Source of the DNA: Candidatus Thiopontia autotrophica
GTDB taxonomy: Bacteria > Pseudomonadota > Gammaproteobacteria > GCF-002020875
Reading direction: 5' to 3'
Length of the DNA: 64,000 nucleotides
NCBI GenBank assembly: GCA_014384675.1
Contig: JACNFK010000015.1
Span: forward strand, 1 to 64,000
Shown here: positions 2,830 through 30,317 of the stretch, in pieces
Layout: each line of letters opens with the position of its first letter
Position numbering within the stretch: the stretch's first letter is position 1
Program-made: the position numbers and the translations under genes
The notes under the pieces: generated by a model
Told to the model about the DNA's origin: nothing
Databases searched by the model: none
Seen by the model: only the letters and a program-made list of their open reading frames with translations

Positions 2830-3025
2830 ATTTTGGTGTCTACTGTAGTATTTGATCACCGGGACTCGATCCTTGATCCTTAACTCACGACCCTGGGAGC
2901 TAATTTTATTAAAGGCGTGTGCAGGTCCGATTATCGGAAAGCCTAAACCTTTAGTTCAGGCTCCCCTCCTTGAACTCTATGGTTCAGGGACGTTGGCCCG
3001 ACCGGTACATACGGTAGACACCACC
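2830..3025 (+). ncRNA. ssrS: 6S RNA
   Basis: About 190 nt between zapA and the 5-formyl-THF cyclo-ligase gene, the canonical ssrS locus. The ends close in a perfect stem (TGGTGTCTAC at 2834-2843 with GTAGACACCA at 3014-3023). The interior is the long imperfect helix with a central bubble expected of a 6S RNA that mimics an open promoter and sequesters sigma-70 RNA polymerase. Ends are approximate; the identification rests on synteny and the closing stem. Confidence 0.88.
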
Positions 3026-10935: not shown

Positions 10936-10963
10936 CTAGAGCCCGAAAACTAGAGCCCGAAAA
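10936..10963 (+). repeat. Tandem 14-bp duplication
   Basis: CTAGAGCCCGAAAA twice, head to tail, between rpiA and the first small-RNA promoter. Two copies only, with no palindrome. It may be replication slippage or a binding site. Confidence 0.75.
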
Positions 10964-11009: not shown

Positions 11010-11041
11010 GTCATCATACAGTAACATTGGTTTAGCATAAT
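11010..11041 (+). promoter_or_regulatory. OmpR-type operator and -10 for small RNA 1
   Basis: GTCATCATACAGTAACA (11010-11026) is a direct repeat with 11-bp period. It is followed after exactly 9 bp by the -10 hexamer CATAAT (11036-11041). No recognisable -35 exists, as expected for an activator-dependent promoter. The same layout occurs at 11185, 13572 and 13873 (the last two on the minus strand), including the promoter of the adjacent OmpR-like regulator. Confidence 0.72.
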
Positions 11042-11047
11042 GGTCCC

Positions 11048-11178
11048 ACGATTTGAGGTGGACTCCTAATTGTCCCTCCTCCTCCTCGGACTCTCCGGAT
11101 AAACCTCAAATCTCAGGCCCTTCTCCCATAGATTGGCCTGAGACCCGTCAGTTATAGATATCACTGGCGGGTTTTTTT
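11048..11178 (+). ncRNA. Candidate small RNA 1 with CUCC-repeat loop
   Basis: No open frame. Three consecutive stems: GATTTGAGGT (11050-11059) with ACCTCAAATC (11103-11112), perfect 10 bp; TCAGGCC (11113-11119) with GGCCTGA (11135-11141), perfect 7 bp; then a terminator. The first stem opens just after the predicted start. Its large apical region holds GUCCCUCCUCCUCCUCGG, which is complementary to Shine-Dalgarno sequences, and the second loop also holds CUCCC. A C-rich anti-SD loop suggests a trans-acting translational repressor. Target and Hfq dependence are unknown. Confidence 0.72.
11143..11178 (+). terminator. Rho-independent terminator of small RNA 1
   Basis: ACCCGTCAGT (11143-11152) pairs with ACTGGCGGGT (11163-11172) with one G-U pair, followed by a run of seven T. 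Confidence 0.88.
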
Positions 11179-11184
11179 ATGTCC

Positions 11185-11216
11185 GTAATCATCTGGTAAC
11201 AATGTATTGATACTGT
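11185..11216 (+). promoter_or_regulatory. OmpR-type operator and -10 for small RNA 2
   Basis: GTAATCATCTGGTAACA (11185-11201), a direct repeat with 11-bp period, then 9 bp, then the -10 hexamer TACTGT (11211-11216). It aligns without gaps to the operator at 11010 and starts 7 bp past the T-run of the first terminator, so small RNA 2 is a separate transcription unit. Confidence 0.7.
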
Positions 11217-11221
11217 GGGGA

Positions 11222-11306
11222 TGTTGTATGTAGCAATACAACAAGTTTCATGATACTTCCTTTGAAGCGACATTGCCTGCCCTGACTATGATGGGCAGGC
11301 TTTTTT
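11222..11306 (+). ncRNA. Candidate small RNA 2
   Basis: About 85 nt. It begins with a perfect 8-bp stem (TGTTGTAT 11222-11229, ATACAACA 11236-11243), then a roughly 30-nt unpaired stretch containing CTTCCTTTG, then a terminator. No convincing open frame. It lies immediately downstream of small RNA 1 under an equivalent operator, an arrangement reminiscent of the tandem OmpR-controlled OmrA/OmrB RNAs of E. coli, though the sequence is not similar. Its 3' end runs antisense over the stop codon of the histidine-kinase gene. Confidence 0.66.
11275..11306 (+). terminator. Rho-independent terminator of small RNA 2
   Basis: GCCTGCCC (11275-11282) pairs perfectly with GGGCAGGC (11293-11300), loop of 10, followed by six T. 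The minus strand has no T-run after this stem, so it serves rightward transcription. Confidence 0.88.
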
Positions 11307-12678
11307 ATGCGACAGCCGGATGCTCCGCACTGTCAGTTGGAATGATCAGGCTTGCAATCACACTACCTCCACTCCTGTTTCTTAAGGAGAGGTGCATTCC
11401 ATGAAGCTCGGCAAGCTGTCTGGCAATGGCCAGCCCAAGGCCGCTACCAAGATGTGAGTTACCTCTGGATTCATCCACCCTGTAGAATGGCTCAAACACA
11501 GTCTCAAGTAGCTCCTCTGGAATGTTGTCACCACCATTTTTCACCTCAACCTCAAGGTGTGATATTTGGTCACCTCTCTCCTTATGACAATAGACAGTGA
11601 CCTCATGATCTCTCCCGAACTTGATGGCGTTCTCAATCAGATTACCAACCACTCTGCGGATTGCCGTTGAATTGGTCTTGATATGACAACATTTTCCCTG
11701 AGTGAAATTGATTGGTGTAGTGGAGGTTGCATATTGCTTGATCACACCATCTATAAGAACACCAAGATCAACCATCTGTATCTCTGATGACAGTGCGGCC
11801 TCTCCAAAATCCATTGAGCTGTCGATCAACTCGTCCATTACCTTGATGTCACTCTCTATCTTCTCAACCAGATCAGTATTATCTGGGCTTCTCAATAGCT
11901 CCAGATAGACCCTTATCCTGCTTAAGGGGGTACGCAGATCATGTGAAACCCCTACAAGAATGGTTGTCCTGTTCTTCAGTAGTGTCTGAATTCGTGAGGA
12001 TAGCCTGTTTATATTCTTGATTAGGGATCGAATCTCTTTCGGGCCTTTTTCCTGAACAACACAGCACCCGTCTGGATGTTCAGTTTTGCCAAGATCATTT
12101 TCCAGGTCCCTTATTGGCTGGGTAATTTTCCTGGATGCCAGAACGGTCCCAGCCAGAGTAAATATTGTCCACAACACAAACAACAGAATTATGGACCAGC
12201 CAAAGTGAATGTGTGACCTCTTCTCACTGAAACCAATACGAATTACTTCACCATCCACATCAAGATCAACCCAATGGTAAGTTTCACCACTCTCTTCTAC
12301 AGAGGTCAGTATTGAAAAATCACTACTATGAACTTTATCCCGAAGCATATCCCCGAGGTGGATCAAATATGGGTCAAATGAGACCATACTCTTCAGTGGG
12401 TTGCGATGGTCACCAAGAGTCAGCTTATTAGTTTCCAGTATAGATTGTACATAATCACTATCTCTTGATGTTCCATCTTTGAACCGATGGATAGAGCGTG
12501 CCGAGTTAATCAGAAGATCAGAAAAATCCCTGGCAGACTGGTCAACACTAGGATGAACAACAAGGGCTATGAATAGCAAGCCATTCAGAATAGCAACAAT
12601 AAAAATTGTCCCTGCAAATATCAATGAACTTTGGCTTATTATTGAGCAGTTTTCCAGGCATCTCTCTAAGCGTTTCAT
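11305..12678 (-). CDS. EnvZ-like sensor histidine kinase
   Basis: 457-aa inner-membrane kinase. Transmembrane segments lie at about residues 18-41 and 160-180 and enclose a periplasmic sensor domain of about 115 residues. A HAMP segment follows, then the H-box GVSHDLRTPLSRIRV, which closely resembles EnvZ. The ATP-binding N-box is NLIENAIKFG and the G-box GSGLGLAIARQLAELHG. The start overlaps the response-regulator stop by 4 bp. The ligand is unknown. The periplasmic domain does not look like EnvZ, so the signal may differ. Confidence 0.93.
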   Translation of the reverse strand: MKRLERCLENCSIISQSSLIFAGTIFIVAILNGLLFIALVVHPSVDQSARDFSDLLINSARSIHRFKDGTSRDSDYVQSILETNKLTLGDHRNPLKSMVSFDPYLIHLGDMLRDKVHSSDFSILTSVEESGETYHWVDLDVDGEVIRIGFSEKRSHIHFGWSIILLFVLWTIFTLAGTVLASRKITQPIRDLENDLGKTEHPDGCCVVQEKGPKEIRSLIKNINRLSSRIQTLLKNRTTILVGVSHDLRTPLSRIRVYLELLRSPDNTDLVEKIESDIKVMDELIDSSMDFGEAALSSEIQMVDLGVLIDGVIKQYATSTTPINFTQGKCCHIKTNSTAIRRVVGNLIENAIKFGRDHEVTVYCHKERGDQISHLEVEVKNGGDNIPEELLETVFEPFYRVDESRGNSHLGSGLGLAIARQLAELHGMHLSLRNRSGGSVIASLIIPTDSAEHPAVA

Positions 12679-13385
12679 TTGGTAACTTTATCGAGACTAA
12701 AGCGGTATCCAAATCCCCTGATTGTTATCAGAAAATCTGGGGAAGATGGATCATCCTCAATTTTTTTTCTCAGGCGATTGATACGAGCATCAATACTGCG
12801 ATCCATTACATCCTGTTCATACGCATGTATCTGAGTCACAAGATAGTCTCTACTCAGTACCCTGCCCACTTTATCAAGAAAGATCTGCAATAAAACCGTA
12901 TCTGCTGGACTAAGGTCAACCTCTTCACCATCTCTGACTAAGATATGTGATTCACGATTAAATTTGTTCTTTCCAAAGACCACCACTTTCTCTTCTCTAT
13001 TCTGTTTTACCAGCAGTGACTCTCTGCTGCGGATCATTGCCTTGATTTTCTCCAGCAGCTCTCTTGGATCAAAAGGTTTTCTTAGGTAGTCGTCACCACC
13101 GCTTTGAAGACCAGCAACAACATCGTCTGTTCTGGTAAGGGCAGATACGAATAGAATTGGTATGGTATTTCCAGATCCACGAATGTGGCTAGCGACATCC
13201 AAGCCACTACCATCAGGCAGCATTACATCAAGTATTATCAGCGCAGGATTCTCCCTGGATAGAATATCCTCTACCTCAGAACCATACTCTGTCAAGATCA
13301 CTGCAAAGTTGTTTTCTTCAAGAAGAGTGCGGACAGCACCAGCCAATCCACAGTCATCCTCAACGATAAGAATTTTTTTATCCAT
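12675..13385 (-). CDS. OmpR-family response regulator
   Basis: 236-aa regulator. The receiver has the acidic pocket EDD (residues 9-11), phosphoacceptor Asp53 in LIILDVMLPDGSG, and the KP motif in RKPFDP. The winged-helix output domain has the OmpR-like recognition region DRSIDARINRLRKKIEDDP and ends GFGYRFSL. The ATG at 13385 is chosen because GGAGG sits 6 nt upstream and MDKKILIVEDD is the proper domain start; an in-frame extension to 13448 lacks support. It is transcribed from a promoter near 13546 carrying the GTAACA direct repeat, so autoregulation is likely. The leader is about 150 nt. Confidence 0.93.
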   Translation of the reverse strand: MDKKILIVEDDCGLAGAVRTLLEENNFAVILTEYGSEVEDILSRENPALIILDVMLPDGSGLDVASHIRGSGNTIPILFVSALTRTDDVVAGLQSGGDDYLRKPFDPRELLEKIKAMIRSRESLLVKQNREEKVVVFGKNKFNRESHILVRDGEEVDLSPADTVLLQIFLDKVGRVLSRDYLVTQIHAYEQDVMDRSIDARINRLRKKIEDDPSSPDFLITIRGFGYRFSLDKVTK

Positions 13386-13540
13386 GCCCATCCTCCATCC
13401 AGCGCTATAAAGCACCTTCATGGTTCCCTTCCCCTGAGGGTAGTTCATAAAAACCTAATGTAAAGATTTTATTGAATATTAATGTGTCTTTGACCAATAT
13501 CCATATTCGTTATAGATATAAATCAATAAATCACAATGTA

Positions 13541-13572
13541 ATAATAGCGATTGTTTGTTACCAAACTGTTAC
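13541..13572 (-). promoter_or_regulatory. Operator and -10 of the two-component operon
   Basis: On the minus strand GTAACAGTTTGGTAACA (13572 to 13556), a perfect 6-bp direct repeat with 11-bp period, then 9 bp, then TATTAT (13546-13541). Spacing is identical to the small-RNA promoters. It is the most symmetric of the four sites, and plausibly where the regulator controls its own expression. Confidence 0.75.
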
Positions 13573-13664
13573 CACAACCAACCAAAACCCAACATATGGT
13601 TTATCTATTGAGCGCTCTATCAACCCATTCGATGGCCACAAACAGGCCGAACTGCGTGTTTTCT

Positions 13665-13808
13665 CTACAACGATATCCCAAGAATAACGAATGGGTGAAT
13701 GGCTAAAATTGCAAACATCGAGAACATAAGCAGGGCAGCCAGAACAACCAACCTTTCACTAATGGGATCAAGTAGTGCCTTGAAACGGTTTTTACCTGTT
13801 TTTTTCAT
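13665..13808 (-). CDS. 47-aa single-span membrane protein
   Basis: Starts MKKTGKNRFKALLDP, then a hydrophobic segment from about residue 20 to the end (RLVVLAALLMFSMFAILA and onward). AAGGA lies 7-8 nt before the ATG. It has a basic cytoplasmic N-terminus and one membrane span. It has its own promoter carrying the two-component operator at 13873-13842. Its size and regulation recall small feedback or connector proteins of sensor kinases such as the 47-aa MgrB of E. coli, but there is no sequence similarity I can point to. It lies immediately upstream of, and in the same direction as, the two-component operon. Confidence 0.7.
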   Translation of the reverse strand: MKKTGKNRFKALLDPISERLVVLAALLMFSMFAILAIHPFVILGISL

Positions 13809-13841
13809 AATCAATCCTTGTCTATGAAAATTTCAGACCAC

Positions 13842-13873
13842 AGTCTAATCTATGACTGTTACCGCATGATGAC
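13842..13873 (-). promoter_or_regulatory. Operator and -10 for the 47-aa membrane protein
   Basis: Minus strand GTCATCATGCGGTAACA (13873 to 13857), then 9 bp, then TAGACT (13847-13842). The first 8 bases and the last 7 are identical to the small RNA 1 operator or nearly so. The predicted start near 13835 leaves a 27-nt leader containing the AAGGA ribosome site. Confidence 0.72.
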
Positions 13874-14298: not shown

Positions 14299-14610
14299 CT
14301 AACTAGACAGATAACCATCTTTTGGATCACTGACGCCACGCATGCTGGGAAAGGTCTGCTTCTCAAATTTTTCTGCAATTCTGCGTATGCAGATGACACA
14401 CCCCTCTTTGCCCAACAACACATCAGAAAATTTCTTGTTTACTTTATGCCCAAACTGATCTGAAATCTCCACCTCTTCTTTCGTGGGTAGTACACGAGCC
14501 TTTAGGCCGAACTGATTCAGCACATTCCAAAAATCAACAAACCCCTCAATATCATATCCTGCAGCTCTCATCTCACTCCTCCTCAACACAACAAAATCCT
14601 TAACAGTCAC
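14299..14610 (-). CDS. Unknown 103-aa cytosolic protein
   Basis: Not recognised. Mixed alpha/beta composition with no membrane segment. Notable are a VLLGKEGCVICIRRIAEK stretch holding a CxxC pair near residue 75 and a C-terminal SMRGVSDPKDGYL. It is first gene of a two-gene unit with the ArsR regulator, so it is probably part of the regulator's sensory or response circuit; a redox or metal role for the CxxC is a guess. Confidence 0.62.
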   Translation of the reverse strand: MTVKDFVVLRRSEMRAAGYDIEGFVDFWNVLNQFGLKARVLPTKEEVEISDQFGHKVNKKFSDVLLGKEGCVICIRRIAEKFEKQTFPSMRGVSDPKDGYLSS

Positions 14611-15297: not shown

Positions 15298-18200
15298 CTA
15301 GAGCAGCACCTGCTCCATCCCGCCTCCATTTACCCTGTCCAGAAACTGCTGTTGCCACTGGTCACCATGCAGCTTTTTCACTATCTCAACCACCAGATAG
15401 TCTACTTTCAATCCCGTGCTCTCTTGATAACGGATCAACCCCTGCTGGCAAGATGGGCAGGAGGTGAGAATTTTTTCTACGCTGCTGAGCCCGCTGATAT
15501 CCTTTTTCAGCTCCTGCTCTTTTCTGAACTTCACCTGAGTTGCAATATCGGGACGGGTAACGGCAAAGGTTCCGGACTCGCCACAGCAGCGATCTGATAG
15601 CTGCACCTTAGAACCGGTCAGCCCCGATGCCACCTGGATTGAGTCAAACTGCTTCATTGGGCTATGACAGGGATCATGGAATAGATATTTTTCACTGTTC
15701 TCTTCCAGCTTGACCCCCTTCTTCAGCAGATATTCATGGATATCAAGCAGACGACAGCCGGGGAATATCTTCTCAAACTCGTACTGCATCAGCTGATCCA
15801 TACAGGTGCCGCAGGATACCAGTACAGTTTTTATATCAAGGTAGTTGAGGGTGTTGGCGATACGATGGAAAAGGATGCGATTACCCATCGAGATCTGGTG
15901 CCCCTTCTCCTCATCACCAGAGGCACGTTGCGGATAGCCACAACATAGATACCCAGGAGGAAGGACTGTCTGCACATCCAGCGCATAGAGCATGCTAAGT
16001 GAGGCCATCTCCACCTCCCCGAAAAGGCGCTCGGAGCCACAGCCAGGAAAGTAGAAAACTGCCTCTGACTCTGTTGATGTGGTCTCTGGGTTTCTTAACA
16101 CTGGGATATAGCGACGATCTTCTATGCCCAGTAGCGCTCTGGGGCTCTTCTGTGACATGCTCCCCGGCATAGGCCGATGGAAGAAGTGAACTACCTGACT
16201 CTTGATCTCCGGTTTGCCGGTTGTGGCAGGGGGACGCTTCTGTCGTTGCAGCAGCCCTGAGCCACGCATAAGCTGATGACCCAATCTCTGTAGTGCATAG
16301 CTCCATGTCACCAGCCCGGTACGCATAATCTTGATCAGACGGGGATCGGTTACATTGAGAAACTGCATAGAGATCCAACCTACCGGCTTGAACCACCGTT
16401 TGCGTTGACGTTTGAGGATGGTACGCATCTGTACAGTGACATCACCAAAATCAATATTGACCGGACATGGTGTTACGCAACGATGACAGATGGTGCAGTG
16501 GTCTGCCACATCATTCATCTCCTCAAAGTGGCGCAGCGAGATACCACGACGGGTCTGCTCCTCATAGAGCACCGCCTCAATCATCAGGCCAGTTGCAAGA
16601 ATCTTGTTACGTGGGGAGTAGAGCAGATTGGCTGCCGGAACATGGGTGGTACAGACCGGTTTGCACTTGCCGCAGCGCAGGCAGTCCTTGACCATCTGGT
16701 TGAGGCTACCCAGATCATTAGCCTCCAGGATCAGCGCCTCCTGTGCCAACAGCTGCAGTGAGGGGGTGTAGGCATCCTCCAGCCCGGAACCGGCCATGAG
16801 CTTGCCACGATTGAAGTGCCCCTCTGGATCCACACGCTCCTTGTACCCCTTGAAGGCATCAATCTCTTTCTGATTCAGATAATGGATCTTGGTCAGGCCG
16901 ATCCCATGCTCCCCCGAGATCACCCCACCCAGTGATTGGGCCAGCTCCATGATGCGGTCCACAATCCGCTCCGCCTCCTGCAGCATTTCATAGTTATTGG
17001 AGTGGACAGGAATGTTGGTATGGACGTTTCCATCACCTGCATGCATATGGGTGGCCACGAAGAGGCGGCGAGATTTTATCCTGGAGTGCAAGAGGTCAAA
17101 CTCGTCTCTTAATTTAACCATCTCCTGACCGGAGAATATCTCCTTTAAAGGATGCTCTATCTCTCTCTTCCATGAGACTCTGAGATCACGGCGTTGTAGC
17201 AATCTAAACAGTGTGCGTGATTCAGAGAGATCTGGATCGCGCTCAATTTGGAGAGACCCATAACTGTTATCCATATTCTGTAACAGCAGGCTCCAACGTG
17301 TTTTTATCTGATCTATCAGTTCATTTGCAGCACTCTGTTTCGAGACCAGAATCTGCTGATGCTCCTCACTGTTATCACCTTGTGCCGTATGTCTGTTTAT
17401 CTTCTTGATCAGCTCCTGAAGCTCATCAAGGCCACTCAGTTTGTTCTGGATAGATTGCTCAATATTTATCCGCTCTATACCATCCCCATAGTCAGCCAGG
17501 CGGTCCAGTGGAATTACCACATCCTCATTAATCTTGAATGCATTGGTATGGGCGGCAATTGCAGCTGTTCTGGATCTATCCAGCCAGAAATTTCTACGAG
17601 CCTCAGAGCTAACAGCAATAAATCCCTCTGCTCCACGCCTCTCTGCAGCATCAACCACAGAGTTAATTACATCCGTTAGCAGCTCATCACTCTCGCCACC
17701 AATATCGGCAAGCAGCACCATCTTTGGCAGATCTGGCCGCGCCGCCTTGGTGCTGTACTGGACAGCTTTCACATAACGCTCATCAAGGTGCTCTAGCCCA
17801 GATAGAACCACGCCTCTACTCTGCTTAATGATATCTATGGTTTCAACAATAGCAGGCACTGCTCTGTGCAGATCAGGATCAAAGAACTCGAGACAGAGGG
17901 TTCGTAGCTGCGGTGACTGTTTATGTAGCACAAACAGAGCTGATGTTATCAGTCCGTCGCAGCCCTCTTTTTGTGCACCCGGCAGACCTGCCAGAAATTT
18001 GTTTGTAACATCCTTGCCAAGTCCTGGCTTGCGCATCTGCTCTGATGGAATCTGCAGGATCTGTGGTTCACTCTTCTCTGTGATCCCATCTTTTTCAAAG
18101 AGCTGAATCCTGAATTCCGCATATGGCTGATCATGCAATTTCCCCAGATTATGGTTCAGCCTCTCTACCGCAAGCCACTCTGCCTGGGGTGTGACCATCT

Positions 18201-29967: not shown

Positions 29968-30021
29968 AAAATAAAACTCCTTGTTACCGTACTCTCCCGT
30001 ACGAGTGAAAAGACTCAATCC

Positions 30022-30175
30022 CTGGCCGGTCTCCGGACTTGCGACTCCACATCACACCTTCCCATCACCAAACTCATGACAGTGGTATTCTGTAATGCTT
30101 CAAAATCACCTACCGTTGCGGGGGCAGTATCGGAATTGCAGTAGTTGCGCACCGATTTCCCATTTAACTCCTGAT
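30022..30175 (-). promoter_or_regulatory. Cobalamin (B12) riboswitch
   Basis: Minus strand shows the conserved core GCCCCCGCAACGGTAGGTG, preceded by GGGAAATCGGTG and followed some 90 nt later by the B12 box AAGTCCGGAGACCGGCC (30040-30024). It lies 55 bp upstream of cbtB. Adenosylcobalamin binding should repress the whole 12-gene cbtB...cobJ operon, linking cobalt uptake and corrin synthesis to end product. No second riboswitch was found before the 38.7-44.5 kb cobalamin genes. Confidence 0.95.
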
Positions 30176-30317
30176 CTATTTGAACAAATGAGCAAGAGAA
30201 CCAACAATCGCCTCCCATTTTGTGGCCTAATCAAAAAATTGTCAATTTTCCTTTTCATAAGCAAACAACGCTTTGTCGTAGAACCGAACCCTGTTTCTCA
30301 TTTACAATCAACATAAT

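Follow-up and report, generated by a model that had tools for sequence, protein, structure and literature searches.

Organization of the locus

The stretch of 64,000 nucleotides (nt) of Candidatus Thiopontia autotrophica analyzed here (contig JACNFK010000015.1, positions 1–64,000; hereafter the window) contains, with rpiA on one side and a large oxidoreductase gene on the other, an operon for an EnvZ-like sensor histidine kinase and an OmpR/PhoB-family response regulator, together with two small RNA candidates and a gene for a membrane micropeptide. Each of these four units is preceded by a tandem promoter site, and judging from the sequence, the locus is best read as an accessory two-component module of the OmpR family that uses a half-site code of its own. 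Its features are as follows (bp, base pairs; aa, amino acids).

11010..11041, + strand: promoter P1 of RNA1, GTCATCATACAGTAACA; half-sites GTCATC/GTAACA at 11010-11026, 9 bp, −10 hexamer CATAAT at 11036-11041
11048..11178, + strand: RNA1 candidate (putative start); hairpin 1 with loop CUCCUCCUCCUC at 11076-11087, hairpin 2 with a C-rich loop, terminator at 11144-11178
11185..11216, + strand: promoter P2 of RNA2, GTAATCATCTGGTAACA; half-sites GTAATC/GTAACA at 11185-11201, 9 bp, −10 hexamer TACTGT at 11211-11216
11223..11306, + strand: RNA2 candidate (putative start), about 84 nt; hairpin at the 5′ end, a short middle, and a terminator at 11275-11306
11305..12678, − strand: EnvZ-like sensor histidine kinase, 457 aa; Pfam HisKA and HATPase_c, membrane segments at about 13-43 and 163-181, H-box at 246
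12675..13385, − strand: OmpR/PhoB-family response regulator, 236 aa; Pfam Response_reg and Trans_reg_C, start MDKKIL, Shine-Dalgarno sequence GGAGG
13541..13572, − strand: promoter P3 of the regulator-kinase operon, GTAACAGTTTGGTAACA from 13572; half-sites GTAACA/GTAACA, 9 bp, −10 hexamer TATTAT at 13546-13541
13665..13808, − strand: membrane micropeptide, 47 aa, MKKTGKNRFKALLDPISERLVVLAALLMFSMFAILAIHPFVILGISL; ATG at 13808, ribosome-binding site AAGGA
13842..13873, − strand: promoter P4 of the micropeptide, GTCATCATGCGGTAACA from 13873; half-sites GTCATC/GTAACA, 9 bp, −10 hexamer TAGACT at 13847-13842

The two proteins had been predicted to form a two-component system, and Pfam domains and curated models identified them as an OmpR-family regulator and an EnvZ-like kinase. 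Both the receiver and the winged-helix Trans_reg_C domain of the regulator scored above the Pfam gathering scores, as expected of the OmpR/PhoB family. Among the curated models (NCBIfam, with equivalog cut-offs), those of EnvZ and OmpR scored nearest for the local pair, though far under the cut-offs at which orthology would be assigned (OmpR, 179.6 vs 331; EnvZ, 181.8 vs 415). The main EnvZ/OmpR-like pair of the genus (G000:C19) was closer to these models (OmpR, 303.6; EnvZ, 215.8) and likewise remained under the cut-offs. In the recognition helix, the local regulator reads SIDA, against SIDV in the remaining OmpR-like rows of the alignment; we take this Ala-for-Val position to be V203 of Escherichia coli OmpR, near the DNA, and treat it as a lead only.

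No orthologue of the regulator with more than 42% identity was present in 37 genomes, and none that was close in the named genome contigs; for the kinase, only a decayed copy in a sister species was found. The nearest other tested regulator of this genome (C30) is also OmpR-like rather than PhoB-like. The locus is AT-rich, with 39–44% G+C against mostly 45–53% in the flanks, and comparison with related genomes, which the original prediction had called for, showed that it is missing beside rpiA in 5/5 other genomes of the genus. Therefore, we regard it as an accessory module. A perfect 14-bp tandem repeat, CTAGAGCCCGAAAA, lies at 10936-10963, just after rpiA.

Four tandem promoter sites

The positions and strands originally given for the four 17-bp tandem sites were all correct, and at each of them an 11-bp half-site period is followed by exactly 9 bp (N9) and a −10-like hexamer. 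All four have GTAACA as their downstream half-site, and the hexamers carry A at position 2 and T at position 6. With this half-site, which is GNAACA-like, and a period of one helical turn, the sites conform to the OmpR type of tandem site. A scan for sigma-70 −35/−10 promoters gave no match at the four sites, which agrees with the predicted absence of a −35 element.

P1–P4 are the sole matches to GT[AC]A[TC][AC]-N5-GTAACA-N9-[TC]ANNNT in the window. Five exact copies of GTMATC-N5-GTAACA occur in the 1.58-Mb genome, three of them within the 3 kb of the locus. The genome-wide scan proposed for this motif, run with N9-TANNNT and up to two mismatches, placed P1–P4 at ranks 1–4. A scoring matrix built from five known sites, each omitted in turn, was scanned over the window, and no other position matched the score of any omitted site. 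When two mismatches were allowed, GTMATC-N5-GTAACA was found 13 times in the window against 7.1 expected, and reversed-pattern controls gave similar numbers of matches. Because the looser motif is only mildly enriched, the evidential weight lies in the exact matches, the spacing, and the clustering. The fifth exact site of the genome (C34:97489) has no −10 hexamer at N9 and was rejected, as was a window site at 16487, which lies inside a coding region and scores low.

Copy of the site beside a kinase remnant

We compared six genomes of the genus (about 13 Mb), of which G000 is the genome of the window and G004 that of the sister species. The exact pattern occurs four times in them: three times at this locus and once at G004:C19:2259, where it immediately precedes a decayed relative of the window's histidine kinase. 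This remnant has 49% identity over residues 27–210 (the sensor region) and contains three stops, and no regulator gene was seen beside it. Promoter site, spacing, and a −10 hexamer (CATGAT) are all still present. Since the sole other exact copy in the genus adjoins a decayed kinase orthologue, site and spacing are tied to the two-component system. In G004, the repeat GGTGAGCTGAGCAG...GCGGCCGCGCTTATCA is found at the kinase remnant (L147 2170-2240) and also after rpiA (L170), which may have to do with the module having moved.

Genus-wide promoters with GAAAYA half-sites

A search of the six genomes for GAAAYA-N5-GAAAYN followed by a gap of 4–14 bp and TANNNT gave 17 matches, 14 of them with a gap of exactly 9 bp, whereas the reversed pattern used as a control gave one. 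All seven matches in this genome (on C10, C14, C19, C24, C30, and C34) have the 9-bp gap; one of the seven, together with its G004 counterpart, lies inside a coding region and may be due to chance. Two GAAAYA promoters flank the main EnvZ/OmpR-like pair of the genus; at G000:C19, the divergent promoter reads GAAATTTTACTGTAACA-N9-TATAAT, and the G005 counterpart, beside an OmpR-like regulator, reads GAAATCATTCTGAAACA-N9-TAATAT. The genes behind these promoters include those for a FixG/CcoG-like protein, a cytochrome b/ferredoxin protein, c-type cytochromes, and an MMPL exporter, and at G000:C19, G000:C34, G004:C46, and G004:C54 the promoters precede a CCUCC-loop hairpin, a relative of the micropeptide, or both. 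These outputs are probably under the main OmpR-like regulator of the genus.

The N9 geometry is thus common to the GAAAYA promoter class, and spacing alone cannot define a private regulon. Of the compact regulon that had been proposed from sites and spacing, the half-site letters GTMAYM/GTAACA stand as private and the N9 spacing does not. Since the same kinds of output occur elsewhere under identical geometry but with GAAAYA half-sites, the module looks like a parallel, re-coded circuit.

The strongest alternative is that the main OmpR-like regulator, or both regulators, act at P1–P4, so that the local pair would not govern itself but belong to a larger regulon. The shared geometry and output types speak for this, as does the box at G000:C19:2380, which ends in the same GTAACA half-site; cross-regulation is possible for that reason. 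However, the upstream half-sites consistently differ (GTMATC vs GAAAYA), and exact GTMATC with N9 and a −10 hexamer is confined within the genus to the surroundings of the local kinase and its remnant, although all six genomes have an OmpR-like regulator. We consider this alternative unlikely.

Still less probable is that P1–P4 are PhoB boxes, phosphate-responsive tandem 11-bp repeats close upstream of the −10 hexamer. PhoB boxes replace the −35 element. They consist of two 11-bp direct repeats with the consensus CTGTCAT (PMC2648988), and our sites likewise pair direct repeats of 11 bp where a −35 element would stand, with a GTCAT in two upstream half-sites that resembles the consensus. In contrast, the half-sites are GTMAYM/GTAACA, with the OmpR-type GTAACA downstream in all four, the recognition helix of the local regulator (DRSIDARINRLRKK) is of the OmpR type and not of the PhoB type (ERTVDVHIRRLRKAL), and no pho genes lie nearby; neither CTGTCAT repeats at P1–P4 nor a PhoB-type helix in the local regulator was found. 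That the likeness of the sites is accidental, or that they are remnants without a shared regulator, as the small size of the excess of two-mismatch matches and the yield of the reversed controls might suggest, is highly improbable given the exact matches, their clustering, the fixed N9, the leave-one-out scan, and the copy at the kinase remnant.

RNA1, RNA2, and the CCUCC-loop hairpin family

The two small RNA candidates are plausible as proposed: RNA1 folds with −54.2 kcal/mol (z −5.95) and RNA2 with −30.9 kcal/mol (z −3.6), and both end in a G+C-rich hairpin followed by a T-run. With GUCC/GGAC as the closing pairs, hairpin 1 of RNA1 can present an apical loop of 12 bases, CUCCUCCUCCUC. The RNA2 terminator reaches the stop codon of the kinase gene, which runs toward it; because of this, read-through from the kinase gene would produce antisense transcript to both RNA2 and RNA1.

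Hairpins with the apical loop CCUCCUCCUC form a genus-wide family in which the stems vary freely and the loop is constant. Matches to CCTCCTCCTCG in the genus fell into two classes, intergenic ones with the motif in apical position (z −2.7 to −7.0) and coding ones that mostly resembled shuffled sequences (z about 0). The window copy had z −2.8, with the loop split in the minimum-energy fold. Members lie behind OmpR-type promoters at G000:C19, G004:C46, and G005:C104, as does a CCUCCUCCUCC variant at G002:C155, and behind sequences that on visual inspection look like sigma-70 promoters (G000:C27, G004:C42, and G001:C39). At the last three loci (G000:C27:46005, G004:C42:32285, and G001:C39:6364), a conserved three-hairpin RNA with a CCCUCCUCCUC loop and a second loop containing UUCCCCCAAUUU appears to follow its sigma-70 promoter; it had no match in Rfam. 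At one contig end (L206, G000:C14:1-300), two CCUCCUCCUC-loop hairpins on opposed strands face each other about 120 bp apart.

The motif was absent from nearly all genomes of the class searched outside the genus, and the matches found there were discarded because they lay in coding-looking sequence. Searches of the two-RNA region against 95 genomes with blastn gave only short chance matches. At gathering scores, Rfam gave no family for this part of the window, and at E ≤ 1 it gave none for the RNA loci; the candidates thus matched no described small RNA family, OmrA/OmrB included. Elsewhere in the window, Rfam identified a 6S RNA (2837-3021, + strand; RF00013, 78.7 bits) and a Cobalamin riboswitch (30007-30220, − strand; RF00174, 103.5 bits).

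The RNA1 loop is predicted to pair with the start region of the regulator gene (GGAUGGAGGAUGGGC) with −23.5 kcal/mol, which ranks it fourth among the window's 53 start regions. From this pairing, negative feedback is predicted, as exerted by OmrA/OmrB on ompR-envZ. A start region in a neighboring open reading frame without convincing family (14299-14610, − strand) carries GAGGAGGAG, which is fully complementary to part of the loop (−25.0 kcal/mol).

Micropeptide family

The 47-aa membrane protein of the original prediction belongs to a real small protein family. Its relatives in the genus are encoded at G000:C34 and G004:C54, which are syntenic orthologues, and at G000:C19; all three stand behind GAAAYA half-sites with N9 and a −10 hexamer. 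The family is 34–48 aa long, with K6, D14, P15, E18, and a core LMF..FA invariant. The micropeptide is weakly similar to a membrane segment of PgsA, a likeness that recurs across the class (best E about 0.004–0.01). It had no match in Pfam, and a PHROGs search of the small proteins gave none.

Proposed mechanism and comparison with known systems

In the mechanism we propose, a signal received by the kinase would lead to phosphorylation of the regulator, which would bind GTMAYM-N5-GTAACA as a head-to-tail dimer in place of the missing −35 element and recruit RNA polymerase to the −10 box 9 bp downstream. Four outputs would follow: the regulator's own operon; RNA1, whose anti-Shine-Dalgarno loop should block translation at G-rich starts, including that of the regulator; RNA2, a short terminator-ended RNA; and the micropeptide, whose target may be the kinase, by feedback, or the membrane, for example via its PgsA-like segment. 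A four-output, self-activating module of this kind is in our estimate the best explanation (probability about 0.62), probably with feedback within the module. The sites, their spacing and exclusivity, the RNA folds, the two families, and the common geometry are observed, whereas we infer that the regulator binds and activates, where transcripts start, what RNA1 targets, and how the micropeptide acts.

Several observations weigh against this explanation. The upstream half-site of P3 (GTAACA) differs from those of the other sites, and the GTAACA end of the G000:C19:2380 box counts here too. The minimum-energy fold of RNA1 is a variant with a split loop, though the GUCC/GGAC closure is possible; pairing of an anti-Shine-Dalgarno loop with purine-rich starts is expected for many genes; and RNA2 has no relatives in the 95 genomes. 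The module is not known from any other intact copy. The tree placed the local regulator on a long branch and did not show it to descend from the main OmpR-like regulator.

OmrA/OmrB are two neighboring small RNAs that are activated by an OmpR-family regulator and repress its mRNA (PMC12692685). The locus resembles this EnvZ/OmpR arrangement of Enterobacterales in having two adjacent RNAs with an OmpR-family regulator, whose repression is here predicted for RNA1. In contrast, the RNAs here adjoin the two-component operon and are mutually dissimilar, RNA1 has an anti-Shine-Dalgarno loop, and the local pair is not an EnvZ/OmpR orthologue by the curated cut-offs. The alpha-r14/SmelA075 RNAs of alphaproteobacteria have conserved anti-Shine-Dalgarno apical loops, CCUCCUCCC, on freely varying stems (PMC3927594, PMC10746234). 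Constant loop and variable stems recur in our hairpins, whereas the loop is CCUCCUCCUC(G), there is usually one such hairpin per RNA (hairpin 2 of RNA1 has another C-rich loop instead of CCUCCUCCC), the lineage is another, and the promoters are of the OmpR type. The NmsR RNAs of Neisseria are also tandem and carry anti-Shine-Dalgarno motifs (PMC5362039), but these siblings are almost identical to each other, are subject to stringent control, and have no two-component system beside them. MgrB, a 47-aa membrane protein of the PhoPQ regulon, feeds back on the kinase (PMC8404706). Our micropeptide, which resembles a PgsA membrane segment, is likened to it by size and two-component setting, not by sequence, and kinase inhibition here is a guess.

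The locus had been described as a self-contained circuit with no known counterpart; our results bear this interpretation out in part and widen it. Its feedback elements have precedents in OmrA/OmrB with ompR-envZ and MgrB with PhoPQ, and the hairpins in the alpha-r14 RNAs, while for the combination, as for the hairpin and micropeptide families, we found none. Nor does it look like a lone circuit; its sequence features point to an OmpR-type scheme that spans the genus, of which it would be a compact version with a changed code. It is conceivable, though doubtful, that this scheme is hitherto undescribed and comprises OmpR-family regulators, a fixed half-site-N9-(−10) geometry, and new families of CCUCCUCCUC-loop RNAs and PgsA-like micropeptides, with the window holding an independent second version that has a shifted code and both RNA and membrane feedback.

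The CCUCC-loop hairpins and the micropeptides carry no annotation in the libraries searched and were found only through their common promoters. Duplicated or acquired two-component systems need to avoid promoter cross-talk. In this one small genome, two OmpR-type circuits appear to have kept the geometry and the kinds of output while differing in the half-site letters. Insulation at the DNA level would therefore be testable by a few promoter swaps.

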